From a virus, in IMG/VR virus record IMGVR_UViG_3300025138_000048, positions 1-56,054 of that record: DNA of 56,054 bases; one strand, written 5' to 3'. The notes beneath the pieces are model-generated. The model had not been told where the DNA came from, ran no database searches, and worked only from the letters and a program-made list of their open reading frames with translations. This document shows, in pieces, positions 3,487 through 36,838 of this stretch. The translations under genes and the position numbers were made by a program. Positions within the stretch are counted from its first letter, which is position 1; each line of letters begins with the position of its first letter.

Positions 3487-3496
3487 TATGTATAAC
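3487..3496 (+). promoter_or_regulatory. weak match to the TATTTATAAC candidate late promoter
   Basis: TATGTATAAC differs by one base from the motif repeated upstream of the structural genes and lies 80 bases before the Hsp20 start, just after the clamp stop codon. The assignment is tentative. Confidence 0.3.
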
Positions 3497-3575
3497 AAAA
3501 TAAACTGACCTAAGGGCGTAAGTTTTTTATTTATTTATTAACCGCTGATCTAACGACAGCATAAAACAAAGTGAT

Positions 3576-3995: not shown

Positions 3996-4003
3996 TTATT
4001 TTT

Positions 4004-4026
4004 AACCTAAGTTCGCCCTTTAGGTT
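4004..4026 (+). repeat. inverted repeat after hsp20
   Basis: AACCTAA (4004-4010) pairs with TTAGGTT (4020-4026) around a 9-base loop. No T-run follows on the + strand, so it is not a classical intrinsic terminator. Its right arm overlaps the -33 element of the next promoter. Confidence 0.45.
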
Positions 4027-4055
4027 GGATTATTTAATTAAATTTCGTATATTAC
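4024..4055 (+). promoter_or_regulatory. Bacteroides-type promoter upstream of the chaperonin operon
   Basis: The -33-like GTTG at 4024-4027, a 20-base spacer and TATATTAC at 4048-4055 preceded by TTCG match the promoter family found across the window. It would drive the genes from 4079 through GroES and GroEL. Confidence 0.65.
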
Positions 4056-4078
4056 GGTAAACAAAAATAAAAAGTTAT

Positions 4079-4375
4079 ATGGCAAAGATTACAGACCCAC
4101 TCTTACACCCCTATTTTGTAGGGAAGGATACACATTGTTATACTGTGTATGAAATAGTAACCCCACAAGCTAAATATTTAGAAGAAGGTAGTGAAGGTAA
4201 GGATTATGAAAAACCTCAAGGACATTATTCTTCTTTTGGTGCTGCTTTACAAAAAATAGCAAAAGAAAAACTTCATAATGAAAAAGATCATTATACTAGT
4301 ATTAAACAATATGTAGAAAGATGGGAAGAATTATTAACCGAATTAAAAAAATTACAAAATTATAAAGGACTATGA
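4079..4375 (+). CDS. hypothetical phage protein preceding groES
   Basis: A 98-residue protein with no domain I can name. It has a central region (GHYSSFGAALQKIAKEKL) that looks like a conserved small phage protein type, and a helical, charged C-terminus. It starts about 24 bases after the -7 element of the promoter at 4048 and overlaps GroES by 4 bases, so it is the first gene of the chaperonin operon. Whether it has a folding role is unknown. Confidence 0.7.
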   Translation: MAKITDPLLHPYFVGKDTHCYTVYEIVTPQAKYLEEGSEGKDYEKPQGHYSSFGAALQKIAKEKLHNEKDHYTSIKQYVERWEELLTELKKLQNYKGL

Positions 4376-4773
4376 ATTTAGAAGCACTATTTAACGCAGT
4401 TATTGTAAAACCTCTTGAAGTAGAGGAAGCAAAGTATGGATCAATTGTTGTACCAGATATTGGTAAAGACAAAAATGAACATGGAGAAGTTATAGCAGTA
4501 GGACCAGGTCAACATACAATATCAGGAACTTTTATTCATACTATTAGTAAAATAGGTGATATTGTTGTTTTACCTACACAAGGTTTTACAAAATTAGAAC
4601 ATGAAGGTGAAGATTATTATGTTGGGCCTGAAAATCAAATTTTAGCGAAAGTTAAAAAAGTAGTAGATGTTGAAGATATACTATCTGAAACAGACCCACT
4701 TACAGAATCAGAATTAATAAGTGAAGAAGAATTTAATAAGTTAGAAACTAAAGAAAAAACAGATAATGAATAA
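4372..4773 (+). CDS. groES: GroES-like co-chaperonin
   Basis: The first 95 or so residues follow GroES: NAVIVKPLEVEE at the start, then YGSIVVPD where the GroEL-binding mobile loop sits, then GEVIAVGPG, GDIVVLP and the YYVGPENQILAKV ending. GroES forms a heptameric lid for GroEL. This version, at 133 residues, carries an acidic C-terminal extension of about 35 residues not found in typical GroES. It overlaps groEL by 8 bases, so the pair is probably co-translated and matched in stoichiometry. Confidence 0.88.
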   Translation: MNLEALFNAVIVKPLEVEEAKYGSIVVPDIGKDKNEHGEVIAVGPGQHTISGTFIHTISKIGDIVVLPTQGFTKLEHEGEDYYVGPENQILAKVKKVVDVEDILSETDPLTESELISEEEFNKLETKEKTDNE

Positions 4774-6406
4774 AATTATAGAATTTGGCCCTGAAGGGAG
4801 AAAAAAATTAGTACAAGGTATTGATACTTTAGCTGATGCTGTTGTGTCAACGTTAGGACCTAATGGTAGAAATGTTGTTATTGAAAAAGAACATGGACAA
4901 GCACAATCTACTAAAGATGGTGTAACTGTAGCAAGACAAATTTCACTTAAAGACCCAGTTGAAAATTTAGGTGTAAATTTAGTTAAAGAAGCATCAATAA
5001 AAACAGCAGATAAAGCAGGTGATGGTACAACAACATCTACTTTATTAGCAAGAGAAATGATTAAAAGTGGTCTTAGTCATTTAAATAATGGGGCTAATGC
5101 TGTTGAAATTAAAAGAGAAATTGATAAAGCAGTCAAATCTATTGTTGGTGAGCTTCAAAGTAAAGTATCTGAAGATATATCAGAAGAGGGACAATTGGAA
5201 CAAGTAGCAACAATTTCAGCAAATAATGATCCTGAAGTTGGTAAACTTATAGCTACTGCAATTGAAAAGGTAGGTCATGAAGGAGTTGTTCATATTGAAG
5301 AAAGTAAATCAGGAGATACTTATCTTGAAACTGTGGAAGGTATGCAATTTGATAGAGGATATAAATCCCATTTCTTTGTAACTAATAATAGTACAATGAC
5401 TTCTACTTTAGAAGATGTTTCAATTCTTATTGTAGATCAAAAATTAACAGCAGTAAAAGAGTTACTTCCAATTTTAGAAAGTACAGCATCTCAAAATAAA
5501 TCATTATTAATTATAGCAGAAGATATTGATAATGAAGCATTAGCAACTTTAATTGTTAATAAGGGAAGAGGTACTATTAAAGCTTGTGCAGTAAAAGCAC
5601 CTGATTTTGGTGATAGAAGAAAATTAATATTAGAAGATATAGCTACTATTACTGGTGGTACTGTTTTTTCTAAAGAAAAAGGTCATAAATGGGATAAATT
5701 CCAACATGATTGGTTTGGTCAAGCTCGTACAGTTACAATTACTAAAGATAAAACAACTATTATTGATGGGAAAGGTAATGAAGATTTAGTAAATCAAAGA
5801 ATTGATGATCTAACAGCTCAAATTGAAGCAGCAGAAAGTGAGTTTGAAAGAGAACAATTACAAAGTAGGCTAGCTAGATTATGTGGTGGTGTTTCTATAA
5901 TTCATGTAGGTGGGTATACTGAAACTGAAATGAATGAAAAGAAAGATAGAGTAGATGATGCGTTACATGCAACTAAAGCAGCAATTGAAGAAGGAATTGT
6001 TCCTGGAGGTGGAGCTGCACTATTATATGCAAGAGAAATATTACCAGTTACAGATAAATGTAACCAAAATATAGGATCAGACATTGTATATAAAGCATGT
6101 GGGAAACCATTTGAACAAATACTTATAAATGCAGGGCATAATGCAGTTCAAGCCCAAATGGTAGGTAAGTATAGATTAGTTGATTCTGGAAATAATATGT
6201 GGGCAGGATATAATATTAAAACTGATGAAGTAGTTGATATGAAAGAAGCTGGAATTATTGATCCAACTAAAGTAACTAGGGTAGCATTAGAAAATGCAGC
6301 AGCTGTAGCTGGAACTGTATTACTTACAGAATGTATAGTAGTAAATGAACCTACAGATGAAAAACCACAACCACAAATAGATCCATCATCAATGATGGGA
6401 ATGTAA
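4766..6406 (+). CDS. groEL: GroEL chaperonin, full length
   Basis: At 546 residues this is about the length of bacterial GroEL (548). ATP-site motifs are intact: GPNGRN at 31-36, GDGTTT at 85-90, the VDDALHAT block at 396-403 with the aspartate at the catalytic position, and PGGG at 413-416. The apical region keeps LLIIAED and the helix EALATLIVN. The C-terminus is a short SSMMGM rather than long GGM repeats. With GroES beside it, this phage appears to encode a complete ATP-driven folding chamber, probably for virion or replication proteins. Base composition is as AT-rich as its neighbours, so recent capture from a host is not evident. Confidence 0.97.
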   Translation: MNKIIEFGPEGRKKLVQGIDTLADAVVSTLGPNGRNVVIEKEHGQAQSTKDGVTVARQISLKDPVENLGVNLVKEASIKTADKAGDGTTTSTLLAREMIKSGLSHLNNGANAVEIKREIDKAVKSIVGELQSKVSEDISEEGQLEQVATISANNDPEVGKLIATAIEKVGHEGVVHIEESKSGDTYLETVEGMQFDRGYKSHFFVTNNSTMTSTLEDVSILIVDQKLTAVKELLPILESTASQNKSLLIIAEDIDNEALATLIVNKGRGTIKACAVKAPDFGDRRKLILEDIATITGGTVFSKEKGHKWDKFQHDWFGQARTVTITKDKTTIIDGKGNEDLVNQRIDDLTAQIEAAESEFEREQLQSRLARLCGGVSIIHVGGYTETEMNEKKDRVDDALHATKAAIEEGIVPGGGAALLYAREILPVTDKCNQNIGSDIVYKACGKPFEQILINAGHNAVQAQMVGKYRLVDSGNNMWAGYNIKTDEVVDMKEAGIIDPTKVTRVALENAAAVAGTVLLTECIVVNEPTDEKPQPQIDPSSMMGM

Positions 6407-10164: not shown

Positions 10165-11595
10165 ATGATTGAAGGTTATATAAAAAAAGAAGATAGAAAA
10201 AAAATATTACTTCTAACAGATGATATTAGAGTACACTCTGGCGTTGCTCAAGTAGGTAGAGAAACAGTAACTAATACAGCCCATAGATATAATTGGGTTC
10301 AATTAGCAGGAGCTGTTAAACATCCCGAAAAAAATCAAATACAAGATTTAAGTGAAGCTACTAATAAAGAAATTGGTATTGAAGATGCATCTGTGGTATT
10401 ATATCCTTGTGATGGTTACGGAGATGAAAAACTTGTAAGGTTAGTTATAGAAAGGGAAAAACCAGATGCAATTCTTTTAATAACTGATCCTCGTTACTTT
10501 GAATGGTTATTTAATATTGAAGATGAAATTAGATCACAAATTCCGATTACATATTTAAATATTTGGGATGATTTACCAGCTCCAATGTATAATCAAGATT
10601 TTTATGACTCATGTGATGCTTTATTCGGAATTTCTAAACAAACTAAAAATATTAATGAAATGGTTTTAGGTGATAAAGCTAAAAATAAAGTAATTAAATA
10701 TATCCCACATGGTTTAAATCATAAAAAATTCTATCAATTAGAAGAAAATGATAAGGAACTAATAAATTTTAAAAAACAATTTCATAATTCAGAAGGTAAA
10801 GAATTTACAATATTATTTAATTCAAGAAATATTAGAAGAAAATCTATACCTGATACCATATTAGCATGGAAGTTATTTTTAGATAAATTACCAAAAAACC
10901 AAAGGAATAAATGTCAAATGGTTATGCATACACAACCTATTGACCAAGCTGGTACAGATTTACCTGCAGTAATTAGGTTTTTATTTCCTAAAGAAGATCA
11001 TAACATAATAATGTCTCATCAAAAACTTACAATAGAACAAATGAATTTATTGTATAATAATGCTGATGGAACTATTTTATTATCATCTGCTGAAGGGTGG
11101 GGTTTATCTTTAACAGAATCGTTATTAACAGGAACACCTATTATAGCTAATGTAACAGGTGGGATGCAAGATCAAATGAGATTTGTTGATGAAAATGATA
11201 ATTGGTACACACCAACTCCAGATGTTCCTTCAAATCATAGAAAAACTTATACTAAATGTGGTGAATGGGCATTACCCGTTTTTCCAACTAACTTATCATT
11301 AGTAGGTTCACCTAAAACTCCTTACATTTATGATGATAGATGTTCAGCTGAAGATGCTGCTGATCAAATAATGAATTTGTATAAAATGGGTGATAAAGAA
11401 AGAAAAAGAATTGGAAATTTAGGAAAAGAATGGGCATTAAGTGAAGAAGCTGGATTTACTGCAGAAACTATGGCTCAAAGAATTTCTGAAGGATTTGAAG
11501 AAACCTTTAAAAATTTCAAACCAAAGTCAAGATTCACATTTACAGGTGATAATGAAGTAAATAAAAAAGTTTTAAATCATAAATTAATATATTAA
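10165..11595 (+). CDS. glycosyltransferase, GT-B fold (GT4-like)
   Basis: A 476-residue enzyme with a two-domain GT-B layout. The N-terminal half has LLLTDDIRVHSGVAQ, a typical start for GT4 enzymes. The C-terminal half has NSRNIRRKSIPDTILAW and the donor-binding E-x7-E region (AEGWGLSLTES, then GTPIIANVTGG). It transfers a sugar from a nucleotide sugar; donor and acceptor cannot be told. It opens the glycan cassette that runs to 21 kb and is followed one base later by a second GT4-like enzyme. Confidence 0.87.
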   Translation: MIEGYIKKEDRKKILLLTDDIRVHSGVAQVGRETVTNTAHRYNWVQLAGAVKHPEKNQIQDLSEATNKEIGIEDASVVLYPCDGYGDEKLVRLVIEREKPDAILLITDPRYFEWLFNIEDEIRSQIPITYLNIWDDLPAPMYNQDFYDSCDALFGISKQTKNINEMVLGDKAKNKVIKYIPHGLNHKKFYQLEENDKELINFKKQFHNSEGKEFTILFNSRNIRRKSIPDTILAWKLFLDKLPKNQRNKCQMVMHTQPIDQAGTDLPAVIRFLFPKEDHNIIMSHQKLTIEQMNLLYNNADGTILLSSAEGWGLSLTESLLTGTPIIANVTGGMQDQMRFVDENDNWYTPTPDVPSNHRKTYTKCGEWALPVFPTNLSLVGSPKTPYIYDDRCSAEDAADQIMNLYKMGDKERKRIGNLGKEWALSEEAGFTAETMAQRISEGFEETFKNFKPKSRFTFTGDNEVNKKVLNHKLIY

Positions 11596-11596
11596 T

Positions 11597-12892
11597 ATGA
11601 AAAATACATTTGTTGTAAGTTGTCCAATAGATACTTATAGTGGTTATGGTGCTAGAAGTAGAGATTTTGTAAAAGCTTTAATTGAATTAGATGAATATGA
11701 TGTACAAATACTATCTCAAAGATGGGGTAAATGTTCTGAAGGATTTATAAAAAATAATAAAGATTGGGAGTTTTTAAATAAACATATCATTCCACAGTTA
11801 ACATCTAAACCAGATTATTGGTGTCAGATAACAGTTCCGAATGAATTTCAAACAGTAGGAAAATATAATATAGGTTTAACAGCTGGTATGGAAACTACTA
11901 TTGTTGATGGAAGTTGGGTTGAAGGATGTAATAGAATGGATTTAATTATGACATCATCTAATCATTCTAAAAATACCTTTTTAAATTCTAAATTTCATAA
12001 AGGTGATGATAAAACTAATGTATTAGAAATTAATAAACCAATTGAAGTATTAATTGAAGGTTTAAATTTAGATGTTTATAAGGTAACAAAAGAATTTAAA
12101 AATAAAGAATTATATAATAAAATAAATTCAATTCCTGAAAAATTTGCTTATTTAACTGTTGGCCATTGGATGCAAGGTGAATTAGGAGAAGATAGAAAAA
12201 ATATTGGATTAACAATAAAAGCATTTTATGAACTTTTTAAAAATAGAAAAAACCCACCTGCATTAATCTTAAAATCTTGTATGATTAATAGTAGTATTTT
12301 AGATAAATCAGAAATTCAAAGAAGAATAGAAATTATTAAAAGTGGAATTCCAGATGCAAAAACATTACCTAAAGTATATCTATTGCATGGTAGTTTTACA
12401 GATCTAGAAATGAATGAAATATATAATCACCCTAAGGTTAAATCAATGATTAGTTTAACAAAAGGAGAGGGATATGGTAGACCTTTATTAGAATTTAGTG
12501 CTATTGATAAACCAATAATTGCAACAAATTGGTCAGGTCATATTGACTTTTTAAAGAAAGAATACTGCAGTTTTATAGAGGGTAAATTAGATAAAATCCA
12601 CCCATCAGCTGTAGTCCCAAATATGATTTTAGCAGAATCTGAATGGTTTAGACCTGAGTTAAAAGATATAGGATATTCTCTTAATAATGTATTTGAAGTA
12701 TATGATGAATGGTTAGAAAATGCAAAAAAACAAGGATCTCATTCTAGAAATAATTTTTCATTTAATTCAATGAAAGAACAAATAAAAGACATATTTAGCA
12801 AAAATTTAACAAAATTACCTAAAAAAATGGATTTAAATATAGGTAAAATTGAAATGCCTAAAAAACCAAAAACTAAATTAAAAAAAGTATAA
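11597..12892 (+). CDS. glycosyltransferase, GT-B fold (GT4-like)
   Basis: A 431-residue enzyme. It has a YGARSRDFVKAL start, TVGHWMQGELGEDRKNIGL for the linker and phosphate region, and the E-x7-E donor site GEGYGRPLLEFSA followed by KPIIATNWSGH. Residues 120-130 (MTSSNHSKNTF) match the acceptor-domain end of GT4 enzymes. The C-terminus is strongly basic (PKKPKTKLKK), perhaps for membrane association. It is probably part of the same surface-glycan assembly as the preceding gene. Confidence 0.86.
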   Translation: MKNTFVVSCPIDTYSGYGARSRDFVKALIELDEYDVQILSQRWGKCSEGFIKNNKDWEFLNKHIIPQLTSKPDYWCQITVPNEFQTVGKYNIGLTAGMETTIVDGSWVEGCNRMDLIMTSSNHSKNTFLNSKFHKGDDKTNVLEINKPIEVLIEGLNLDVYKVTKEFKNKELYNKINSIPEKFAYLTVGHWMQGELGEDRKNIGLTIKAFYELFKNRKNPPALILKSCMINSSILDKSEIQRRIEIIKSGIPDAKTLPKVYLLHGSFTDLEMNEIYNHPKVKSMISLTKGEGYGRPLLEFSAIDKPIIATNWSGHIDFLKKEYCSFIEGKLDKIHPSAVVPNMILAESEWFRPELKDIGYSLNNVFEVYDEWLENAKKQGSHSRNNFSFNSMKEQIKDIFSKNLTKLPKKMDLNIGKIEMPKKPKTKLKKV

Positions 12893-12894
12893 TT

Positions 12895-13398
12895 ATGGGA
12901 GTAGAAACAGACAAATTGATTAAATGTAATAGATGTGGAGGAGATGCCTGTTATGTACAAGAAATAAATAATATAAAATTATATTCATGTTATGGTTGTG
13001 GTTTTCAAACATCAACTGTAATGAAAAAAGGTGAAAAGTTTTTTGATGAACAGATGGAAATTCTACCAGAATTATATAAGGTGTTATTAGGAGAAGATGA
13101 TGAAGGGATGGTTTGGATGCCTCAAACTGTAAATTTACCACAACAAGGAATGGTATTTGCAGCTACAGCTAAAGAATTTGGTTCACCTGGTCAACCTGCA
13201 TCACAAGATAATTATGAATGGGCTGCAGTAAAAGCAATTAAAATTAAGGAAGAAGATAAGGAAAAATATCCAATTCCCTCTAAAAAAGGAGAATTTTATG
13301 AATGGAGAATGGATATGACTACTGAAAAAAGATTTGCCCATAACGATTTTGTAGAAGCATTAGATTATATTGATGTATTTAGTGGAGAAAAAAATTAA
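12895..13398 (+). CDS. zinc-ribbon protein of unknown function
   Basis: A 167-residue protein with a zinc ribbon at the N-terminus: CNRCGG at about 11-16 and CYGCG at about 32-36. The rest is a soluble acidic domain with MVWMPQTVNLPQQGMVF and a C-terminal FVEALDYIDVF. Proteins of this type occur in T4-like phages, but I cannot name a function. It lies between a glycosyltransferase and an epimerase gene. Confidence 0.65.
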   Translation: MGVETDKLIKCNRCGGDACYVQEINNIKLYSCYGCGFQTSTVMKKGEKFFDEQMEILPELYKVLLGEDDEGMVWMPQTVNLPQQGMVFAATAKEFGSPGQPASQDNYEWAAVKAIKIKEEDKEKYPIPSKKGEFYEWRMDMTTEKRFAHNDFVEALDYIDVFSGEKN

Positions 13399-13402
13399 AA
13401 AT

Positions 13403-14284
13403 ATGAAAGCATTAGTAACAGGAGGAGCTGGTTTTATTGGATCTAATTTAGTAGATTCTCTTATAGAAAAAGGATGGGATGTGATAGTAATAGATAACTT
13501 ATCATCAGAAGCTCATGAACAGTTTTATTTCAATAATAAAGCTACTTATTATGAATATGATATTTGTGATTTTGAGTTAATTAAACCCTTATTTAAAGGA
13601 ATAGATTATGTATTTCATTTAGCGGCTGAGTCAAGGATCCAACCAGCTATATTAAACCCAACATATGCTATAACTGTAAATTCTGTGGGTACTTGCAATG
13701 TATTACAAGCAGCTAGAGAAGCAAAATGTGATAGAGTAATTTATTCTTCAACATCTGCGGCTTATGGTTTAAAAAATTCTCCTCCTTTAAAAGAAGATAT
13801 GCCTAAAGATTGTTTAAATCCATATTCTGTATCTAAAGTAAATGGGGAAGAATTATGTAAAATGTATAATGATTTATTTGGGTTAAAAACTATTTCATTT
13901 AGATATTTTAACGTTTATGGTAATAGACAGTGTACTAAAGGACAGTATGCTCCTGTTATTGGATTATTTTTAAAGCAAAAATCAGAAGGTAAACCTATGA
14001 CTGTAATTGGGGATGGACTTCAAACTAGAGATTATACTAATATTAAAGATGTAGTTAATGCTAATATTTTAGCTACTAAATGTGTAGAAGGATTTGGTGA
14101 AGTATACAATATAGGTACAGGCAAAGATTATAGTATTTTAGATTTATGTAATTTTATTGGGGGTAAATATGAACATATCCCAGAAAGAATAGGTGAATGT
14201 AGATTTACCTGCGCTGATAATTCTAAAGCAAAAAATATACTAAAGTGGGAACCACAAGTTAAATTAGAAGATTATTTTAAGTAG
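13403..14284 (+). CDS. NAD-dependent sugar epimerase (GalE/WbpP-like)
   Basis: A 293-residue extended short-chain dehydrogenase. The NAD-binding GGAGFIGS is at the N-terminus, HLAAES in the middle, SSTSAAYG for the catalytic serine, and YSVSK for the Tyr/Lys pair. The substrate region has RYFNVYG. Such enzymes epimerise UDP-hexoses or UDP-HexNAc at C4. The ATG at 13403 is chosen because it directly precedes KALVTGGAGFIGS; an upstream in-frame start at 13370 would add residues with no role in the fold and overlap the preceding gene. Confidence 0.87.
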   Translation: MKALVTGGAGFIGSNLVDSLIEKGWDVIVIDNLSSEAHEQFYFNNKATYYEYDICDFELIKPLFKGIDYVFHLAAESRIQPAILNPTYAITVNSVGTCNVLQAAREAKCDRVIYSSTSAAYGLKNSPPLKEDMPKDCLNPYSVSKVNGEELCKMYNDLFGLKTISFRYFNVYGNRQCTKGQYAPVIGLFLKQKSEGKPMTVIGDGLQTRDYTNIKDVVNANILATKCVEGFGEVYNIGTGKDYSILDLCNFIGGKYEHIPERIGECRFTCADNSKAKNILKWEPQVKLEDYFK

Positions 14285-14312
14285 GATTTTACCAATAATT
14301 TTTGTATATTTA
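14281..14312 (+). promoter_or_regulatory. candidate Bacteroides-type promoter (weak -33)
   Basis: TATATTTA at 14305-14312 preceded by TTTG, with GTAGGATTTT at the expected -33 position. The -33 element is degenerate. It overlaps the stop of the epimerase gene. Confidence 0.45.
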
Positions 14313-14330
14313 ATTAAACAATATTAAAAT

Positions 14331-14954
14331 ATGAAAATAAGTTATGCAGTAACAGTTTGTAATGAATTTGTAGAAATACAAAAATTAATCCCATTTTTAT
14401 TAAAACATAAACTACATGAAGATGAAATTGTAGTTCTTTTTGATACAAAAAATGGAAATAGTAAAGTTGAAGAATATCTAAGAGCAAAATCAGTAAATGG
14501 TGAATTTTCCTGGCATGGGAAGGAATTTAATGGACATTTTGCTGATTGGAAAAATTATCTAACAAGTTTATGTGATGGGGATTGGATATTTCAAATAGAT
14601 GCAGATGAAGTTCCACATATAGTTTTAATGGAAAACATTCATGAAATCGTTATATCAAACCCAGATAATGAAGTTATTAAGGTCCCAAGAGTAAATAAAG
14701 TATTTGGTCTAACTGAAGAATATGTTAGAAAATGGAGATGGAGAGTCAATGATAAAGATTGGGTTAATTGGCCTGATTATCAGTGGAGAATTTATAAAAA
14801 TCATCCAAAAATTAAATGGGTAAATAAAGTTCATGAAGTGTTAGAGGGATATAGTACATATGCTGAATTATCTGATGAAGAACATTTTGCATTATACCAC
14901 CCAAAAGATATAGAAAGACAAATAAAGCAAAATAATTATTATGAAAGTTTATAG
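14331..14954 (+). CDS. glycosyltransferase, GT-A fold (GT2-like)
   Basis: A 207-residue enzyme starting SYAVTVCNE, typical of GT2 family enzymes, with the metal and donor-binding motif DADE (QIDADEVP) near residue 87 and a C-terminal KWVNKVHEVLEGY like WaaE-type transferases. It probably adds one sugar to a lipid- or polysaccharide-linked acceptor at the inner membrane. It overlaps the next gene by 14 bases. Confidence 0.82.
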   Translation: MKISYAVTVCNEFVEIQKLIPFLLKHKLHEDEIVVLFDTKNGNSKVEEYLRAKSVNGEFSWHGKEFNGHFADWKNYLTSLCDGDWIFQIDADEVPHIVLMENIHEIVISNPDNEVIKVPRVNKVFGLTEEYVRKWRWRVNDKDWVNWPDYQWRIYKNHPKIKWVNKVHEVLEGYSTYAELSDEEHFALYHPKDIERQIKQNNYYESL

Positions 14955-15852
14955 TAGTTTTTTACCTATTGAAAGATATAATAAATTTATTTTAAGTAAA
15001 GAAAAATACAAGAATATTCCTATTACTATATTTAATGATTATTTTACTAAAAATAATTGGGATGAATTAACTGAAAACCCTATTAATATTATTATTTTAA
15101 ATGAACCTAATCAACTATTTGGTCACCATACTCAAATCCAAAAATTTTCCCAAAATTATAATTTAATTTTAACATGGGGTCAAGATGTTATAGATAATTG
15201 TTCTAATGCTCAATTATTTATTCATGGTGAGACTAATTTAGATAAAGAATATATTAATTCATTTAAAATAAACCCAAACAGAAAATTTGAAGTAACATTT
15301 TTAAGCGGTGTGTTAGAATTAATTGAAGGTCACAAATTAAGACAAAAAATATTATCTAAAGAAAAAGAATTAAATATTCCACTTAAATTTTGGAAAGTAT
15401 TAGATGATTTCAATCACAAAACAGGAAATAGACCAGGATATAGAGATCCTGGTTGTGATGTAGTTACTGAAAAAGGAACACCAATTGAAGGAGAAGGTAA
15501 AAAACAAGTATGGAATAGAAACTCTATGTTCCATATAGCTGTAGAAAATTCAAGAAATCTAAATTATTATACAGATAAAATAGTAGATTGTTTTGCAACT
15601 AAAACAATTCCTATATATTGGGGTGCTCCTAATATAGAAGATTATTTTAACAAAGAAGGTATAATTACATTTGAAAATGAAGATGATCTGGTTGAAATTT
15701 TAAACAATTTAACCGAAGAAGATTATAAAAATAGATTGGAAGCTATAGAAGAGAATCATATATTGGCGTTAGAAAATGGGTTCTTTTTTGATAGGTTAGA
15801 AAATACTTTAGATAAAATTATAGAACTTAATAATTTAAACAATGAAAAATAA
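14941..15852 (+). CDS. GT10-like (fucosyltransferase-type) glycosyltransferase
   Basis: A 303-residue protein whose C-terminal half has the GT10 signature: FHIAVENSRNLNYYTDKIVDC followed by IPIYWGAPNIEDYFN. In alpha-1,3-fucosyltransferases this region binds GDP-fucose. A GDP-L-fucose synthase-like gene at 19278 in the same cassette would supply that donor. The N-terminal half is less conserved, as expected for the acceptor domain. The donor is inferred from family and context. Confidence 0.8.
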   Translation: MKVYSSFLPIERYNKFILSKEKYKNIPITIFNDYFTKNNWDELTENPINIIILNEPNQLFGHHTQIQKFSQNYNLILTWGQDVIDNCSNAQLFIHGETNLDKEYINSFKINPNRKFEVTFLSGVLELIEGHKLRQKILSKEKELNIPLKFWKVLDDFNHKTGNRPGYRDPGCDVVTEKGTPIEGEGKKQVWNRNSMFHIAVENSRNLNYYTDKIVDCFATKTIPIYWGAPNIEDYFNKEGIITFENEDDLVEILNNLTEEDYKNRLEAIEENHILALENGFFFDRLENTLDKIIELNNLNNEK

Positions 15853-15982
15853 TCAAAATAATGGTAATCCTCATACCAATGAAACCCGAAATGATTTAAA
15901 TAATAAAATCAGTAAACTTAGTTTACTAGGTAAATCTAAAAAAATACAATGGTCTGATAAGAGACGATTTAGAAACATATAA
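15842..15982 (+). CDS. hypothetical 46-residue basic protein
   Basis: An Asn-rich start (MKNNQNNGN) followed by a basic C-terminus (KKIQWSDKRRFRNI). It overlaps the stop of the GT10-like gene and ends one base before the next start, so packing supports it as real. No function is evident. Confidence 0.5.
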   Translation: MKNNQNNGNPHTNETRNDLNNKISKLSLLGKSKKIQWSDKRRFRNI

Positions 15983-15983
15983 T

Positions 15984-16382
15984 ATGGGAAGAAAATATTT
16001 ACCAACATTATCAGAATTAGTAGATAGGTTATCTATTGTTCAATTAAAAGAAGTATTTATCACAGATCATAAAGAAGAGTATGCTAAAGAAATAGCAGAA
16101 ATAACTCATGATATAGAAGAAATACTAAAGGATGATAATATTAGATTAACAGGAAAAGATGTTAGAGCAATTGTAGTATTATCCCAAATGAATTTACATA
16201 TATGGCAGAATGAAACTAAATATCGTGCTGGAACCGGTGATGGTAATTTAGGATTAACTCATGGATTAAATGGAATAAGAAACACAGCAAAAAATATGAT
16301 TCAGGAAGATAGTGATGGTAGAAAAGATTATAAAATTGATTGTATAGCAGCTGAATTTAAAGATTGGGAAATATCATGGTAA
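15984..16382 (+). CDS. hypothetical protein in the glycan cassette
   Basis: A 132-residue protein with LPTLSELVDRLSIVQLKEVFI at the start, resembling in outline the DUF6165-like protein at 37981 (GELLDKLSILEIKLK). The middle has LSQMNLHIWQNETKYRAG. Both proteins sit beside sugar-metabolism genes, suggesting related accessory roles, but no activity is known. It overlaps the next gene by 7 bases. Confidence 0.65.
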   Translation: MGRKYLPTLSELVDRLSIVQLKEVFITDHKEEYAKEIAEITHDIEEILKDDNIRLTGKDVRAIVVLSQMNLHIWQNETKYRAGTGDGNLGLTHGLNGIRNTAKNMIQEDSDGRKDYKIDCIAAEFKDWEISW

Positions 16383-17167
16383 AAGTATTAGTTATAGGGG
16401 ATAGTTGTTTAGACGAATATATTTATTGTACTACAGATAGATTTTGCCCAGATGCACCTGTACCAATTATAAAACCAAAATCATATGTTTCAACTAAAGG
16501 TATGGCTGGTAATGTAGCTGATAATTTAACATCATTAGGAGCTAAGGTTACTTTAATTACAAATGCTAATAGGATTAAAAAAACAAGATATGTTGATGAG
16601 AGAACAAATCATATGTTTGTTAGAATTGATGAGGGTGAAGATGATATATTTCCTGTAGCTAAAAAAACATTAGAAAATATTAAATGGGATGAATATGATG
16701 CTGTTGTTATAAGTGATTATTGTAAGGGATTCCTTACAGAAGATGAAATATCTTACATTTCTAACCAACATACAAATACTTTTTTAGATACTAAAAAATC
16801 TATTAATAATTGGGCTTCAAATATTAACTTTATAAAAATTAATGAAGTTGAATTAGATCATAGTATTGGTTTTTTACATGATAATGAAGGGGAATTTTCT
16901 AAAAAAGTAATTACAACATTGGGAAGTAAAGGAGCACAATATCAAGGAATTAAATATCCCGTAGATAAAGTAGATGTTAGAGATACCAGCGGAGCTGGTG
17001 ATACATTTATGGCTGGTTTAGTATACGCATATATAAAATGTAATATAAGTAATTCTGATACACGTATATGGGAATCAATTAAATTTGCTAATAGGTGTTC
17101 AACACAAATAGTACAGAAAAAAGGTACAGCAAAAGTTAACTTAAAAGAATTAAATAATGAAGTATAA
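16376..17167 (+). CDS. PfkB-family sugar kinase, HldE kinase-domain-like
   Basis: A 263-residue kinase resembling the N-terminal domain of HldE/RfaE, which makes heptose 1,7-bisphosphate. Visible features are LVIGDSCLDEYIY at the start, APVPIIKP and GMAGNVADNLTSLGA, and the ATP-site DTSGAGDTF near the C-terminus. The ATG at 16376 is preferred to an in-frame TTG at 16364 because the fold starts at KVLVIGD. The partner nucleotidyltransferase domain lies far away at 44564, so the usual two-domain HldE is split in this phage. Confidence 0.82.
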   Translation: MVKVLVIGDSCLDEYIYCTTDRFCPDAPVPIIKPKSYVSTKGMAGNVADNLTSLGAKVTLITNANRIKKTRYVDERTNHMFVRIDEGEDDIFPVAKKTLENIKWDEYDAVVISDYCKGFLTEDEISYISNQHTNTFLDTKKSINNWASNINFIKINEVELDHSIGFLHDNEGEFSKKVITTLGSKGAQYQGIKYPVDKVDVRDTSGAGDTFMAGLVYAYIKCNISNSDTRIWESIKFANRCSTQIVQKKGTAKVNLKELNNEV

Positions 17168-17693
17168 ATTTAGTAAAAAATTAAAAGAAGTAGCAATTAT
17201 TCAACCTGATATACATCATGATTATAGAGGTGAATATATTGAAACTTGGAATGTAGAAAATTATAAAATATTTGATCATTTAGTCAATAATAATAAACCT
17301 ATAACATTTAAACAAGATGATATTAGCACATCAGTAAAACACACATTAAGAGGATTACATGGTGATAATAAAACATGGAAATTAGTTTCATGTGTTTATG
17401 GTTCATTATTACAAGTAGTTGTTGATATGAGAGAATCGAGTAATACTTATTTAGAATATGATATGTTTAGTATTAATGATAAGAACAGAAACCAAATATT
17501 GGTACCACCTGGTTTTGCCAATGGTCATCTAGTAATGAGTGATTTTGGAATATTCAGTTATAAACAATCTACATTATATGGAGGGGCATCAGAACAATTT
17601 ACAGTAAAATGGAACGATCCGAAGTTAAGTATTCCTTGGCCTATTGATAATCCTATATTATCTTCCCGAGATAAAAATGCAGAGATTATATGA
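17157..17693 (+). CDS. dTDP-4-dehydrorhamnose 3,5-epimerase-like cupin (RmlC type)
   Basis: A 178-residue cupin. LRGLHGD at 65-70 carries the catalytic His68 of RmlC enzymes, and VPPGFANGHLV at about 116-126 is the second conserved block. DYRGEYIETW near the start also matches. RmlC epimerises 4-keto sugars at C3 and C5; related enzymes act on other nucleotide sugars. No RmlA, RmlB or RmlD is seen here, so the substrate may come from the host. It overlaps the kinase by 11 bases. Confidence 0.84.
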   Translation: MKYKFSKKLKEVAIIQPDIHHDYRGEYIETWNVENYKIFDHLVNNNKPITFKQDDISTSVKHTLRGLHGDNKTWKLVSCVYGSLLQVVVDMRESSNTYLEYDMFSINDKNRNQILVPPGFANGHLVMSDFGIFSYKQSTLYGGASEQFTVKWNDPKLSIPWPIDNPILSSRDKNAEII

Positions 17694-18631
17694 AAAAAAG
17701 TGTATTAATTACAGGAGGAGCTGGTTATCTAGGGTCAGTACTAGCAGAAGTTTTATTAGATAATGGTTATGATGTAACTGTATTTGATAATTTAATGTAT
17801 AAACAAACATCACTATTACATTTATGTGATAATAAAAGATTTAGATTTGTAAAAGGGGATGTTACTGATAAAGGTCGTTTTTTAAATTATATTGTAAGTC
17901 ATGATATTATAATACCTTTAGCAGCTATAGTAGGAGCTCCTGCTTGTGATGTAAATAAAGACTTAGCAACAGCGGTTAATTACACCCAAATAGAATTTAT
18001 AGTTGATAATTTAAGAAAAGACCAAAAATTATTAATGCCTAATACTAACAGTCAATATGGTAGTTCTACTGAGGTAATAACTGAAGATAGTCCATTTAAT
18101 CCTTTATCTCATTATGCTATTACTAAATGTAAAGCAGAAGAATATATTATAGATTGGGGTAATGGTATTTGTTTAAGATTAGCTACAGTATTTGGTTCAT
18201 CCCCTAGAATGCGTACTGATTTGTTAGTAAATGATTTTGTATATAAAGCAATAACGGAAGGTTGTTTAGTGTTGTTTCAGTCTAAATTTAAAAGAAATTA
18301 CATCCACGTAAGAGATATAGCATATACTTTTTTACACTGTATTGAAAACTATGATAAATTAAATGGTGAAGTATTTAATGTAGGATTATCTGATGCTAAT
18401 TTAAATAAAATGGAATTAGCAACTAAACTTAAAGCATATTTTTCATATTTAGTAATAATTGAAAATGAGTTTTCATCTGATATAGATAATAGAAATTATA
18501 TAGTGTCTAATGATAAGTTAGAAGCTACAGGATGGAAACCAAGATATAATATTAATGATGGTATTGAAGAATTAAAAAAAGCATATGAAATGGTTATAGC
18601 GGATAATAATAAAAAATATACTAACCTATGA
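17690..18631 (+). CDS. NAD-dependent nucleotide-sugar epimerase/dehydratase
   Basis: A 313-residue extended SDR enzyme with GGAGYLGS at the N-terminus, PLAAIVGAPACD in the middle, NSQYG at the catalytic position and YAITK for the Tyr/Lys pair. FKRNYIHVRDIA is a typical substrate-domain block. It probably converts a nucleotide sugar used by the neighbouring transferases. The exact reaction cannot be assigned. ATGA overlaps tie it to both neighbours. Confidence 0.84.
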   Translation: MKKSVLITGGAGYLGSVLAEVLLDNGYDVTVFDNLMYKQTSLLHLCDNKRFRFVKGDVTDKGRFLNYIVSHDIIIPLAAIVGAPACDVNKDLATAVNYTQIEFIVDNLRKDQKLLMPNTNSQYGSSTEVITEDSPFNPLSHYAITKCKAEEYIIDWGNGICLRLATVFGSSPRMRTDLLVNDFVYKAITEGCLVLFQSKFKRNYIHVRDIAYTFLHCIENYDKLNGEVFNVGLSDANLNKMELATKLKAYFSYLVIIENEFSSDIDNRNYIVSNDKLEATGWKPRYNINDGIEELKKAYEMVIADNNKKYTNL

Positions 18632-19275
18632 TAACATTAGAAACATCTTATCCTATAGCTTATGAATCACCTGATCATATTTTTCCTTGGGGAACTAAAA
18701 ATGATAATTCTACAAATGAGGGATTTATTAATGAAACATTAGATTTTTGGGAACAAAGGGGTAAAAGTAAAGTTAATTTTTTAGATTTAGGATGTTCTGG
18801 TGGTCAACTTGTAGTTGATTATATCAATAAAGGACATTTAGGTGTAGGTTTAGAAGGAAGTGATTATAGTGTAGTACATAAAAGAGCTAATTGGCCTGAA
18901 TATTATAACAAAAATTTATTTACTTGTGATGTTACAAAACCTTATAAACTATTAAAAGATAATAAAGAAATAAAATTTGACGTAATATCAGCTTGGGAGG
19001 TAATAGAACACATTGCTGAAAATGATTTAATTCCATTTTTTAACCAAATTAATAAAAATTTATTATCTGGAGGGTTTTTCTGTGGTTCTATTTCTATGAA
19101 TATTGAAGTATTAGAAGGTCATGCTTTACACCAAACAGTGTGGAATGAGAAAAAATGGTATGAAAATTTTCCCCAAATATTAAAGGGAACTGATTTAGAA
19201 TTATATGATTATCCCTTTCAAAATAAGGTAAGACAAGATCATGGTTCGTTTCATGTTTTACTGTTAAAAAAATAA
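18628..19275 (+). CDS. class I SAM-dependent methyltransferase
   Basis: A 215-residue methyltransferase. Motif I is FLDLGCSGGQL near residue 50, followed by GLEGSDYS and then DVISAWEVIEHI, typical of UbiG-like folds. In a glycan cassette it most likely methylates a sugar or an intermediate. It overlaps the upstream epimerase by 4 bases and lies 2 bases before the next gene. Confidence 0.83.
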   Translation: MITLETSYPIAYESPDHIFPWGTKNDNSTNEGFINETLDFWEQRGKSKVNFLDLGCSGGQLVVDYINKGHLGVGLEGSDYSVVHKRANWPEYYNKNLFTCDVTKPYKLLKDNKEIKFDVISAWEVIEHIAENDLIPFFNQINKNLLSGGFFCGSISMNIEVLEGHALHQTVWNEKKWYENFPQILKGTDLELYDYPFQNKVRQDHGSFHVLLLKK

Positions 19276-19277
19276 TT

Positions 19278-20162
19278 ATGAAAATATTAATAACAGGTTC
19301 TACAGGGTTTGTAGGTAAACATTTAGTAAAAAGGCTAAAAAAAGAAAGTTGTGATATTACAGAAATAAATTCAACAAATTTCAGTAGTATGTGGTCGTTA
19401 GAAAAAAATAGTTATGATTATATTATACACTTAGCAGTTAAAACAGCAGCAGGAGGATATTGTCAAACACATCCAGGTGAACAATGGATAGTAAATAATA
19501 GTATTAATACTGATATGTTAGCTTACTTTCAACAATATCAACAAAGAGCTACTATGATTACATTTGGATCTTCATGTGGTTATAATGGAAGTGTTAGAAA
19601 GATAGAAGAAAATTATTTAAAAAATGAACCTGAGAGCGGATATGAAGTATACGGGATGGTTAAAAGAAATTTACTAACAGGACTTATAGCATTAAAAAAA
19701 GAATTTGGTATGGATTACAGGTACCTTATACCTTCAGTATTTTATGGTCCTGAATATGATTTAAAAGATAAACATTTTATATTTGATTTAATAAGGAAAA
19801 TAGTAGATGCTAAAAATGGAGGTGATGAAGTAATACTTTGGGGTGATGGAACTCAAACAAGAGAATTAATTTATATTGATGATGCTGTAGATATAATATT
19901 ACAATCAATTTCACCTAAAACCCCAAAAATATTTAACTTATCATCAGGTAAATCTTATAAATTAAAGGATTATGCTAAAACGATTTGTGATATAGTGGGG
20001 TATGATTATAATTTAATCAAATGGGATGTAAATGCTTTTGTAGGATCAAAAAATAAAAAATTAGTTAATACACACTTAAAAGGTTATAAATTTACTTCCT
20101 TAAAAAAGGGATTGAAAAATACAATTAAATATTATGAAAATAGCATCAGTAGTAGTAAATAG
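19278..20162 (+). CDS. GDP-L-fucose synthase-like epimerase/reductase
   Basis: A 294-residue SDR enzyme. It has GSTGFVGKHL for NAD(P) binding, GSSCGYNGS containing the Ser and Cys found in GDP-fucose synthases, and YEVYGMVKR for the catalytic Tyr and Lys. GDP-fucose synthase converts GDP-4-keto-6-deoxymannose to GDP-L-fucose. A GT10-like transferase in the same cassette fits that product. No GDP-mannose 4,6-dehydratase is visible, so the precursor may come from the host. Confidence 0.78.
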   Translation: MKILITGSTGFVGKHLVKRLKKESCDITEINSTNFSSMWSLEKNSYDYIIHLAVKTAAGGYCQTHPGEQWIVNNSINTDMLAYFQQYQQRATMITFGSSCGYNGSVRKIEENYLKNEPESGYEVYGMVKRNLLTGLIALKKEFGMDYRYLIPSVFYGPEYDLKDKHFIFDLIRKIVDAKNGGDEVILWGDGTQTRELIYIDDAVDIILQSISPKTPKIFNLSSGKSYKLKDYAKTICDIVGYDYNLIKWDVNAFVGSKNKKLVNTHLKGYKFTSLKKGLKNTIKYYENSISSSK

Positions 20163-21006
20163 AAATGATGGATATAAAGACTTTAAAAGAGGAATAATAC
20201 ATTTTAGATTCATGACTGAGTCTTTTGATGAAGTTAATTATGTAGATTGGAATTCTCCTAATGGATCTTTTATATGGGAAATAGAAAATAAATTATCTAA
20301 TAAAGGTAAAATTAAACATTATTGTATCCCACCTGATATAGTTCAACAAATGATTATGGACAAAAATGCTCAGAAATGTAATGAGTCTTTAAGTAGAAAT
20401 ATTGCTATTAGAAGAAGCGATGCTGATTGGATTATTTCAACAAACATAGATATAATTCCACCAACAAGGAGAGAATTAAAAAATCTTATAAAGGGTTTAA
20501 ATAAAAATACATTTTATACAGTATCTAGAAGGGAAGCTCCTAAAGAGATTATATATAACAATTCTCACAATAATTTAAGAGGGTCACTAACAACAATTCC
20601 AGCAAGACATTTTCCAGCTAAAGTAACACCTAATGATAATTATAGTTTAATAAATTGTTGTGGGGATTTTCAAATAGCTCATAAAGATGTTTGGAATAAA
20701 TTAAAAGGATTTGAGGAAGAAATGATATATGCATGTTTTGTAGATACGAATGTTCAAAAGAAAGCAGTATTAAATGATTTTGATTTAAAAGTATTGTATG
20801 AACCTGCTTTGTATCATATGGAACATGGAGCTTATTTTACTAAAGAGGATGGTACTAGAGTAAGTGATGAAAATAATGTAGGAGCATTTAAGGGGGATAA
20901 TAAAGCATACAATGATGCTTATAAATGGGTTGAAAATTTTAATAAAACTAATAATGATAAAAATTGGGGCTTAGGAAATGTTGATATAGAAGTAGAGATT
21001 ATTTAA
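20134..21006 (+). CDS. glycosyltransferase, GT-A fold
   Basis: A 290-residue enzyme. The segment RNIAIRRSDADWIISTNIDIIPP holds the likely DxD-type metal site (NIDI), and CCGDFQIAHKDVWNKLKGFEE matches the C-terminal acceptor block of GT2/GT-A enzymes. It overlaps the fucose-synthase-like gene by 29 bases and is the last clear enzyme of this glycan cassette. Donor and acceptor are unknown. Confidence 0.78.
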   Translation: MKIASVVVNRNDGYKDFKRGIIHFRFMTESFDEVNYVDWNSPNGSFIWEIENKLSNKGKIKHYCIPPDIVQQMIMDKNAQKCNESLSRNIAIRRSDADWIISTNIDIIPPTRRELKNLIKGLNKNTFYTVSRREAPKEIIYNNSHNNLRGSLTTIPARHFPAKVTPNDNYSLINCCGDFQIAHKDVWNKLKGFEEEMIYACFVDTNVQKKAVLNDFDLKVLYEPALYHMEHGAYFTKEDGTRVSDENNVGAFKGDNKAYNDAYKWVENFNKTNNDKNWGLGNVDIEVEII

Positions 21007-24234: not shown

Positions 24235-25056
24235 ATGAAAAAGTTAAAAGAGTGGCATAAAAATTATTATTACGGTTTACTAGAGCAGTGGGACATTTCA
24301 TCATATCAAGCATCATGGTTATCTTGGTTTAAAGGATTTATTATTGGTCTTATAGTAGTAACACTATGTAGTTGTGGTACTTACAAAGCGGCTCCAGTAG
24401 ATAAGTGTTGTGAGACTGAAGTAGTTTATTTAGATGAGATCGAAGATGGAACAACTGTATTTACTAGTTATGATAGTGCTATTATACGTTTAGAATTTAA
24501 ACCTTTAAGACCAAATTTTTATTTTGGATTTAATAATAATTATGGACATTGGAGTTCAAGACCTTTATGGTTAGACTTTGATTTTTATCAAGGTAATTAT
24601 TATTCATATAATAGTCCATATTATTCATATTTCCACAGACCCTGGAATTTTTGGGATTATTATTTAAGACCTTGGACACCATCTAATAATTGGTATCAAG
24701 GACCTTTCAATAATCAAGAATACAATGTTGTTTATAATTCAAGTAGAAGAGAAAGTTTAATAGAGTCTAATAGAATGTCTATAGAAGATAGACAAGGTAT
24801 TGCTGCTATGGTAGAAACTTCTAAAAGAAATAATTTTTACAAACCTGTTACTAATGACAAACCTGTAATTATAAATAAACCAGTAGTTAATAATAATAAA
24901 CCTATTTGGAATAATACTAAACCTATTATTAGAAATAACAACAACCCTGTTAGAAATAACAACAAACCTGTATATAACAATTCAAGACCTAGTTATAACA
25001 TTAAACCGAATACCAATACCAAATCATCTTCTTCTCGTAAAGGTGGTAAAAATTAA
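24235..25056 (+). CDS. lipoprotein with Tyr/Trp-rich core and Asn-Lys-Pro repeats
   Basis: A 273-residue protein. After a 32-residue cytoplasmic start there is a hydrophobic segment ending in LCSCG, a lipobox-like site at about residue 47, so it is probably a lipidated envelope protein. The core is rich in Tyr, Trp, Asn and Phe. The C-terminal third consists of irregular repeats around NNKPV and NNNKPI. Such low-complexity tails are common in Bacteroidetes surface lipoproteins. The long N-terminus before the signal is odd; a shorter start is possible but not obvious. Confidence 0.65.
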   Translation: MKKLKEWHKNYYYGLLEQWDISSYQASWLSWFKGFIIGLIVVTLCSCGTYKAAPVDKCCETEVVYLDEIEDGTTVFTSYDSAIIRLEFKPLRPNFYFGFNNNYGHWSSRPLWLDFDFYQGNYYSYNSPYYSYFHRPWNFWDYYLRPWTPSNNWYQGPFNNQEYNVVYNSSRRESLIESNRMSIEDRQGIAAMVETSKRNNFYKPVTNDKPVIINKPVVNNNKPIWNNTKPIIRNNNNPVRNNNKPVYNNSRPSYNIKPNTNTKSSSSRKGGKN

Positions 25057-25568: not shown

Positions 25569-26579
25569 ATGAAATTTATATTATCAATACTGCTGAGCAT
25601 ATTCTGCTTAGTTAGTACAGGACAGACTATTGTCTCAACAACCCCAGAAAATAAAAACGCTATACTAGAAGAATTCACAGGTATTTACTGTGTATATTGT
25701 CCAGATGGACATTTAATTGCAAATAATTTAAAATATTCCTACCCTAATGATTTATTTTTACTAAATTTACATACAGGAGGATACGCTAACCCAGGTCAAA
25801 GTGGTGATCCTGATTTTAGGGTTTTAGAAAATGATAGTATTGCTGATTTATCAAGTTTAGCTGGTTACCCAGCAGGAACGGTTAATAGATACCAATTTCC
25901 AATGTCTCAAGGTGGTGGTACTGCAATGAGTAGAGGAGATTGGGCAGATGCAGTTCAAGATATTATATCTCAACCTTCATATTTAAATGTTGGTATATTA
26001 GCTGAACATGATACTTTAAATGATTATATTAACATTACAGCTGAAGTTTATTATACAGATTCTTTAGAAATAGATGGTTTTGGGTTTCAAGATGTAAACT
26101 ATTTAAACATAGTATTAACACAAGACAGTGTATTAGGACCTCAAACAGGTGGTTCGCAATACAACCCAGGAGCTATTGTACCCGGTCCTTGGCAACCAAC
26201 TTATTCACATCAACATATGGTAAGAGAGTACATTACAGGACAATGGGGTGTACAGTTAAATAATATGAATACACTTGTATATCCTGGTGATCTTTTTACT
26301 AATACTTTTACATATTATATTCCAAATAATATTAATGATATTATATTTGACATTAATAATATAAAGGTAACTGCATATGTAACTGAAAACCCATTTGGAG
26401 AAATAGTAACAGGTACAGGTTGTAACATAACTTTACCAGCTCCTCCACCAGTATCTGTAGCAGAAGTACTATCTAACATAAATGATAATGAAATTTATGA
26501 TATTTTTGGAAGAATTATAAATAATACACAAAAAAATACACTTTATATTAAAAATGGTGCAAAGTTTATAATATTTTAA
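25569..26579 (+). CDS. Omp28-like secreted protein with CxxC and T9SS-like C-terminal signal
   Basis: A 336-residue protein. The start at 25569 gives a clean signal peptide (MKFILSILLSIFCLVSTGQ); an in-frame ATG at 25533 would bury it. ILEEFTGIYCVYC places a thioredoxin-like CxxC at residues 41-44, as in Omp28-related proteins of Bacteroidetes. The last 40 residues contain IYDIFGRII and LYIKNGAKF, resembling the C-terminal sorting domain of the type IX secretion system. If exported by the host T9SS, the protein would be displayed or released at the cell surface. This is very unusual for a phage. Confidence 0.75.
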   Translation: MKFILSILLSIFCLVSTGQTIVSTTPENKNAILEEFTGIYCVYCPDGHLIANNLKYSYPNDLFLLNLHTGGYANPGQSGDPDFRVLENDSIADLSSLAGYPAGTVNRYQFPMSQGGGTAMSRGDWADAVQDIISQPSYLNVGILAEHDTLNDYINITAEVYYTDSLEIDGFGFQDVNYLNIVLTQDSVLGPQTGGSQYNPGAIVPGPWQPTYSHQHMVREYITGQWGVQLNNMNTLVYPGDLFTNTFTYYIPNNINDIIFDINNIKVTAYVTENPFGEIVTGTGCNITLPAPPPVSVAEVLSNINDNEIYDIFGRIINNTQKNTLYIKNGAKFIIF

Positions 26580-28681: not shown

Positions 28682-29107
28682 ATGAAAAAAATGATTTTAA
28701 CATTAGCTCTATCTCTGCTTGTTGCAGTTGGGGTTAATGCACAAAATGTAAAAGGTGACTGGTACGTAGGTACAGGTGACATCGCAAATTTATCATGGAC
28801 TGAATGGTCTGTATCTCCTTCAATGGGTTATGCAGTATCAGACAAACTAATGGTAGGTTTAAATGTATCTCAAACTGATTCAAGTTCAGATTTAGAGTTA
28901 GATATACATGCAAGATATTTTATGACACTAGGTGGTCATGATTTATTCTTATATGGATCTGCTCCAAATTTAGATACTGACAATATAAGTTTGGGTTTAG
29001 GAAAAATGTTTACACTGCATAAAGGTGTATTTGTTGATCCTAAAATCGTTTATAATGTAGGAGAAAAAACGACTAACATGATGTTAGGGTTTGGACTTAA
29101 GTTTTAA
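28682..29107 (+). CDS. small outer-membrane beta-barrel protein
   Basis: A 141-residue protein with a signal peptide (ILTLALSLLVAVGVNAQ) and about eight amphipathic strands, ending in aromatic GLKF, the usual terminal signature of outer-membrane barrels. It would insert in the host outer membrane. Possible roles are receptor masking or superinfection exclusion, which are inferences. An internal ATG at 28691 is an alternative start. A long structured leader precedes it, suggesting regulated expression. Confidence 0.75.
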   Translation: MKKMILTLALSLLVAVGVNAQNVKGDWYVGTGDIANLSWTEWSVSPSMGYAVSDKLMVGLNVSQTDSSSDLELDIHARYFMTLGGHDLFLYGSAPNLDTDNISLGLGKMFTLHKGVFVDPKIVYNVGEKTTNMMLGFGLKF

Positions 29108-29925: not shown

Positions 29926-30720
29926 ATGTTAAATCAAGAAAAAATAAGTTCGAAAAAAGTAGTTGAAACTCCAACATTAAAGATGAGTGTAAAAACTGTT
30001 AAAATGAATAATTTAAATTTTGATAAAAAATTATTTGAACCAATGGCAACTGGAACTAAAGTTGATGCATTTTTTAGTGCTGAAGGTGGTGTTATGCCTG
30101 GTACAAATGTTGTAGTTACTGGTGATCCTGGTGTTGGTAAAACAACAGTATTATTAGATATATTAGGTGATCTTCAAATGAAGGGTAAAAAATGTTTGTT
30201 TATAAGTGGAGAAATGAATGCTATCGATATGGTAGGATATGTTCGTAGATTTCCAAAATTTGGTGATTTAGATATATTATTTATGGGTGATTATGCTGAA
30301 GTAAATCCTGATGTAGTATTAAGAACAGCACTTAAAGAAGGATATGATTGTGTATTAATAGATTCATTAGCAGAAATAAGTGATAATTATGTTGATCATT
30401 TTGGAGGTACTGGTAAATCAAATACTAATAGAATACTTCAATTACTTGATGAGCATAATCAAGCTAGTAATGATGCTAAAATAAATAGTACATTTTTAAT
30501 AATACAACAAGTTACTAAAGGTGGAACGTTTGTTGGGTCAAATAAAATAAAGCATATGACAACAGCAATGGGTCATTTAAAATTTGATAGTGATGGAGGT
30601 AGATTTTTTCACTTTAGTAAAAATCGTAGAGGTGGAAATGGTAACAAATTATTTTTTAATTTAGATAGTAAAAATAAAGTAAATTGGTTATTTGATGAGC
30701 CTATAAACATGGGGGTATAA
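29926..30720 (+). CDS. RadA/KaiC-like RecA-fold ATPase
   Basis: A 264-residue ATPase with Walker A GDPGVGKT at 66-73, LFISGEMNA following it as in RadA, Walker B CVLIDS at 142-147, and KNRRG at 232-236, corresponding to the KNRFG motif of RadA/Sms. RadA helps branch migration in recombination. It has no zinc finger or Lon-like domain, so it is the ATPase core only. It may stand in for UvsX-type recombination functions, which are not seen in the window. It has its own early-type promoter. Confidence 0.8.
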   Translation: MLNQEKISSKKVVETPTLKMSVKTVKMNNLNFDKKLFEPMATGTKVDAFFSAEGGVMPGTNVVVTGDPGVGKTTVLLDILGDLQMKGKKCLFISGEMNAIDMVGYVRRFPKFGDLDILFMGDYAEVNPDVVLRTALKEGYDCVLIDSLAEISDNYVDHFGGTGKSNTNRILQLLDEHNQASNDAKINSTFLIIQQVTKGGTFVGSNKIKHMTTAMGHLKFDSDGGRFFHFSKNRRGGNGNKLFFNLDSKNKVNWLFDEPINMGV

Positions 30721-36280: not shown

Positions 36281-36825
<545 letters not shown>

Positions 36826-36838
36826 CAATTTTTTTATA

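Follow-up and report, generated by a model that had tools for sequence, protein, structure and literature searches.

Signals of the type IX secretion system (T9SS) are commonly described as folded domains of about 70 - 100 residues, and in one experiment 22 residues of HBP35 were reportedly enough to serve as such a signal; whether a given CTD is accepted can differ from species to species. In Porphyromonas gingivalis, HBP35 acts as a thioredoxin, binds hemin and occurs in a form located at the cell surface (PMC2907840). Phage-encoded T9SS cargo as such is already known: Cryophage, a Bacteroidota phage described in 2020, encodes proteins with T9SS sorting domains that are variable among its variants (PMC7468147), and in gut phages T9SS domains have been reported beside BACON-domain proteins (PMC6949934). 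The gene considered here encodes a relative of HBP35 and Omp28 with a C-terminal tail of 32 aa.

The Omp28/HBP35-type protein and its relatives

The stretch of DNA analysed (the window, 56,054 bases) encodes a DNA polymerase, a sliding clamp, a clamp loader, GroEL, a DNA ligase and a gp6-like baseplate wedge protein. The closest cultured match of the wedge protein is in Flavobacterium phage vB_FspM_immuto (MW353176), with 46% identity over the full length, and the window is therefore taken to be a fragment of a Bacteroidota myophage. The DNA polymerase is divided between two ORFs (142-1824 and 1821-2753) with a 4-base overlap, GroES-like and GroEL genes lie at 4372-6406 (the GroEL matching PHROG 5725 with 509 bits), and a big cluster of glycosyltransferase, epimerase, methyltransferase and nucleotide-sugar genes occupies 10165-21006. 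A tRNA-Ala (tgc) at 36752-36826 overlaps the start of an ORF called at 36785, the true start of which is probably further in. The gene at 25569-26579 is surrounded by small accessory genes and by genes for replication and nucleotide sugars, and the baseplate genes lie far from it, at 50-56 kb. Its ORF is real; the mechanical reading frame opens at 25533, and the ATG at 25569 begins the signal peptide and matches the starts of the relatives. The features referred to below are as follows.

25569-26579, + strand: phage-encoded CDS (336 aa) for an Omp28/HBP35-like secreted protein with a mini T9SS-like tail (ORF; Pfam and NCBIfam profiles; relatives at 13 viral loci; fold match to HBP35)
25569-25625, + strand: predicted signal peptide (MKFILSILLSIFCLVSTGQ) without a lipobox (sequence; helix 2-16 in the model; hydrophobic N-terminus common to the relatives)
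25650-25970, + strand: predicted thioredoxin-fold domain, about residues 28-134 (AlphaFold2 model from 66 sequences, blocks mostly >90 pLDDT; HBP35 profile match; weak DsbC profile match)
25689-25700, + strand: CxxC (C41-V-Y-C44), putative redox site (cysteine invariance in 66 sequences)
25854-26390, + strand: Omp28 beta domain (PF11551), residues 96-274 (Pfam; profile match to PDB 2r2c, E 1e-11)
26481-26576, + strand: C-terminal mini tail, 32 aa, with motif B-, D- and E-like elements and without motif A (tail alignments, tail searches, HMM against canonical CTDs)
29926-30720, + strand: RecA-like ATPase, a conserved neighbour that ties related contigs together, given for context only (identity 89% in L096, where it adjoins a mini-tail gene, and 51% in L041, where it adjoins the Omp28-like gene)

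As judged from profiles and a structural model, the product is an Omp28/HBP35-type protein with a signal peptide, a CxxC thioredoxin fold and an Omp28 beta domain. A signal peptide and an Omp28-like domain with a thioredoxin-like CxxC had been read from the letters alone in an earlier note, and all are upheld: the signal peptide is borne out by sequence and model, the CxxC (LEEFTGIYCVYCPDGH) is present with C41 and C44 invariant in 66/66 aligned phage and cellular relatives, and PF11551 scores 37.1 bits against a curated cut-off of 34.9. The signal peptide terminates ...LVSTGQ and, since there is no lipobox, the protein is not a lipoprotein; the Omp28 lipoprotein model of NCBIfam (NF033782) gives 65.7 bits, under its cut-off of 150. 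An HBP35 profile matches over the CxxC region (E 9e-7), there is weak profile similarity to DsbC/PDI, and no family for the protein was found in PHROGs. The AlphaFold2 model has a pLDDT of 87.9 overall and about 60 in the tail, an earlier structure prediction from 7 sequences (pLDDT 52) having been dropped. Its top PDB match, which spans the entire chain, is full-length HBP35 (5y1a; E 2.2e-15, TM 0.58 by query length), followed by an Agrobacterium protein (2axo) and Omp28 (2r2c); no whole-chain match to the model was found in the viral fold library.

Relatives of the protein are encoded at 13 viral loci, and all of the complete ones end in IYDxxGR...xYIxNxKKxI or a near variant, whereas host relatives have a CTD of 65-80 aa where the phage proteins have a tail of about 32 aa. 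In a tree the window protein groups with L002, L003, L146 and L157 as one phage clade; it is 87% identical to L002 and only about 50% to any cellular protein. A second phage clade is formed by the long type (L004, L005, L007 and L012, with about 275 additional residues ahead of the mini tail), and cellular L019, L026 and L037 are nested inside it. L008 and L014, whose body is about 80% identical to that of the window protein and whose tail differs, lie on one 129.6-kb contig on which the Omp28-like gene is split by a ten-base record gap, residues 115-188 being missing. Homologues of the genes at 21015, 21510, 21957, 22228 and 23333 surround the Omp28-like gene in L004-L012. In L041, a contig binned as Candidatus Pelagibacter, an Omp28-like mini-tail gene adjoins a RecA-like gene resembling that at 29926, and the contig appears to be misbinned phage DNA. 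Neither an Omp28-like gene nor a convincing mini tail was found in the records of cultured phages.

The earlier note had placed two lipoproteins and an outer-membrane barrel in the window and had drawn from them a remodelling of the infected envelope. One lipoprotein gene, at 24235-25056, does have a lipobox (LCSC) and no second convincing one was found in the scans; the barrel is plausible, 28682-29107 being a 141-aa secreted beta-rich ORF without a PHROG match. The proposal of remodelling by these neighbours is not supported, as none of them was found next to the Omp28-like gene in related phages.

A genome scan retained 80 cellular loci, nearly all from Bacteroidota and with 40-50% identity. 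In all 72 complete cellular Omp28 relatives the C-terminus is type A CTD-like, so that the body belongs to an ordinary family of T9SS cargo; PNP lies within the final 78 residues in 70 of these 72 ORFs, and the other two have the same type of end, which starts with PNP or PVP. The cellular L019, which adjoins ruvA and a TlpA-like gene in a Flavobacteriales genome, is 72% identical to phage L012 over 565 columns, after which L019 has a full type A CTD and L012 the mini tail. This pair represents, on alignment, a natural tail exchange, in one direction or the other. A TlpA-like WCxPC gene lies 3' of the Omp28-like gene in about 15 of 64 cellular loci, among which are the closest relatives (in L019, at 2998-5640, the Omp28-like gene is followed by a TlpA-like WCKPC gene, and similar loci are alike), a pairing that hints at a redox partnership.

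The C-terminal mini tail

The tail of the window protein ends NDNEIYDIFGRIINNTQKNTLYIKNGAKFIIF and is similar to the latter half of a type A CTD. Mini tails are about 30-37 aa long across proteins and share the pattern GxYIxNxKKxI, which recalls the GxY of motif D and the conserved Lys of motif E; their scores against a canonical-CTD HMM are weak, yet above most shuffles. In alignment A1 the long relatives had their tails wrongly placed, and tails were therefore aligned separately (A2, A3, A5). With an HMM built from 70 canonical CTDs the window tail obtains 9.8 bits, a value reached by 2/300 of its own shuffles, and phage tails in general obtain 2.0-10.6 bits, which is weak per sequence. Among 26 tails, the number of shuffles reaching the tail score was 0-7/300 for most and 11, 14 and 28/300 for three. 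An hhalign comparison of mini tail and canonical CTD gave p 1.5e-4 without database correction.

Some of the evidence tells against a T9SS signal. The earlier note had described the tail as type IX secretion-like and had named the lack of a CTD profile match as refuting this; taken strictly, that outcome was obtained, as neither PF18962 nor TIGR04183 nor any other standard CTD model appears among the Pfam and NCBIfam matches at E<=1 for the window protein and six relatives. What holds of that description is the likeness to part of a type A CTD; the tail is not a standard type A or B domain. Motif A (PNP) was not found in the 32-aa tail, a canonical CTD having 67-88 aa, and in the model the tail forms three short strands at low confidence, the seven-strand Ig-like CTD being absent. 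The seven-strand fold has been called essential (PMC11285876), and a tail that lacks motif A and cannot adopt that fold counts against a T9SS reading.

The mini tail is not confined to Omp28-like proteins. A search with the tail by itself found it also on an unrelated secreted family of about 175 aa, and scanning viral contigs with a degenerate DNA pattern gave 75 stretches, with the tail pattern placed 24-34 residues before the stop codon in 41 ORFs. By a simple rule a signal peptide was present in 31 of 34 complete mini-tail ORFs, compared to 131 of 488 background ORFs, and two of the three ORFs that failed the rule have alternative starts and visible signal sequences. The bodies, named by inspection and Pfam, are of at least five kinds, including Omp28-like, AhpC-TSA/redoxin-like with a CxxC, a CDSxSY family and smaller ones; the redoxin-like L164 and L173 are above the Pfam cut-off and L134 and L181 are similar, whilst L124/L176 and L177 match the pattern with a less typical appearance. 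Grouping of bodies by single-linkage BLAST was rejected, since shared signal peptides fused families. One viral contig (L173, about 11271-12440) carries two adjoining mini-tail genes, one of the CDSxSY type and one of the redoxin type. Related phages place differing mini-tail proteins near the same conserved neighbours. The mini tail is thus no chance sequence but, at the level of predicted proteins, a module reused across several unrelated secreted phage proteins.

The distribution of the tail in cellular genomes was examined with an expanded tail profile. Seven of 395 class-wide genomes matched, and in three of these the mini tail stood exactly at the C-terminus, but in one small-genome marine Flavobacteriales family, chosen as that of the Flavobacteriales genome with the best Omp28 match, 26 of 52 genomes did so. 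A first idea that the mini tail was restricted to phages (3/198 genomes) was overturned by this family search. Chromosomal ORFs with signal peptides end exactly in the mini tail on contigs of up to 1.06 Mb in this family; a few of its hits are like the families seen in phages and could come from phage DNA binned with the genomes. The frequency in the family points to it as the likely host group, and the window phage likely has its host there. Mini tails like SIYDLSGRKLTGIPAKGIYIRNGNKYIVR end proteins in three genomes outside the marine family, G217, G269 and G396 (L207, L208 and L209).

SprA was present in 44/52 family genomes and PorV in 10/10 of those checked. Two mini-tail genomes (G454 and G460) have PorV and neither SprA nor GldM was found in them, perhaps owing to incompleteness. 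All seven class genomes that matched the tail profile have SprA, but so do 384/395 class-wide and hence the co-occurrence of mini tail and SprA is uninformative. Four of the seven yielded only partial hits to canonical CTDs.

Function and alternative explanations

Homology, the structural match to HBP35, the tail exchange with a host orthologue and the reuse of the tail together argue for a phage-encoded, probably T9SS-exported Omp28-like CxxC protein. The explanation we favour, and hold to be reasonably probable, is that a host-derived redox-type protein reaches the surface of the infected cell by means of a minimal T9SS signal. Within it, T9SS export of the mini-tail protein is judged likely. 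The more specific proposal, that the tail of about 32 aa is a minimal portable T9SS signal of one Flavobacteriales family, adopted by phages to tag changing secreted proteins (Omp28-like, redoxin-like and others), is tentative and falls a little short of an even chance. The gene would be an accessory one of host origin in a myophage infecting marine Flavobacteriales. Its product would leave the cytoplasm by Sec during infection, the host T9SS would recognise motifs D and E and the B-like element of the mini tail, and the protein would end up on the surface of the infected cell or be set free from it. There the CxxC may perform thiol-disulfide chemistry or ligand binding like HBP35, and candidate gains for the phage include superinfection exclusion, nutrient capture and protection of surface proteins.

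A rather unlikely alternative is that of a Dsb-like thiol-disulfide helper exported by Sec only and retained in the periplasm, with the tail acting as a docking or anchoring element or being a non-working CTD remnant. The weak DsbC/PDI similarity, the lack of both a CTD profile match and a full CTD fold, and the TlpA-like WCxPC gene adjoining some cellular Omp28 genes are in its favour. However, a dead remnant would not remain C-terminal and conserved on unrelated phage and host proteins, a CTD of the working type occupies this position in the host orthologue, and the closest fold, HBP35, is itself T9SS cargo. It is also conceivable, though improbable, that abundant phage cargo fills the translocon or attachment sites and so diminishes the display of host proteins needed by other phages, a form of superinfection exclusion in which the redox site would be secondary. 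Flavobacterium columnare mutants in the T9SS/gliding genes sprA, gldK, gldM and gldN are phage-resistant (PMC9233685), and the placing of differing mini-tail proteins beside shared neighbours fits such competition, but a pure competitor would not need the invariant CxxC.

That the protein is structural or virion-associated, with a tail that is CTD-like by chance, is very improbable. That the gene is phage-encoded is in its favour and no tool result indicates a virion role, whilst a signal peptide, the distance from the baseplate genes and cellular relatives that are secreted proteins with T9SS CTDs all speak against it. The chance that host DNA was assembled or binned into a viral contig is negligible. 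Host relatives do occur, at about 50% identity or less, but 13 separate viral loci, several of them with conserved phage neighbours, and the far closer identity of the window protein to L002 than to any cell protein are contrary to it, and the conserved phage context refutes such contamination.

Comparison with known systems

No relevant report of a phage Omp28 was found in the literature and, as far as partial literature coverage allows, the mini tail, its reuse over several kinds of protein in marine phages and an HBP35/Omp28-type phage protein were not found described. If the minimal-signal reading is true, we know of no natural T9SS signal smaller than the mini tail of about 32 aa, and phages would routinely display redox-type proteins on infected cells. 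The analysis suggests a use of the host T9SS by uncultured T4-like phages of marine flavobacteria to send out redox-type proteins; the papers located report such a route for few other phages. A natural tail of 32 aa borne by many proteins, together with a near-identical host body bearing a full domain, offers a ready comparison of signal requirements.

The closest cultured phage by wedge protein, immuto, was found to have neither an Omp28-like gene nor a convincing mini tail. With the type A CTD (PF18962, TIGR04183) the phage tail shares its position at the extreme C-terminus, a signal peptide ahead and motif B-, D- and E-like elements, but it differs in matching no profile, in lacking motif A and in having about 32 aa instead of 67-88. 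Omp28 of P. gingivalis (PDB 2r2c) is alike in fold and in the PF11551 match above cut-off, whereas the lipoprotein model falls below its cut-off and the phage protein has no lipobox. HBP35 (P. gingivalis, PDB 5y1a) has the same whole-chain fold and the same order of a CxxC thioredoxin fold and then a C-terminal T9SS signal, a probable one in the phage protein, but identity is 18% and its signal is a full CTD where the phage protein has a 32-aa tail. The cargo of Cryophage, namely an endoglucanase, a GH39 and a PA14 protein, carries recognised type A domains, whereas the protein described here is of a redox type and ends in a mini tail.
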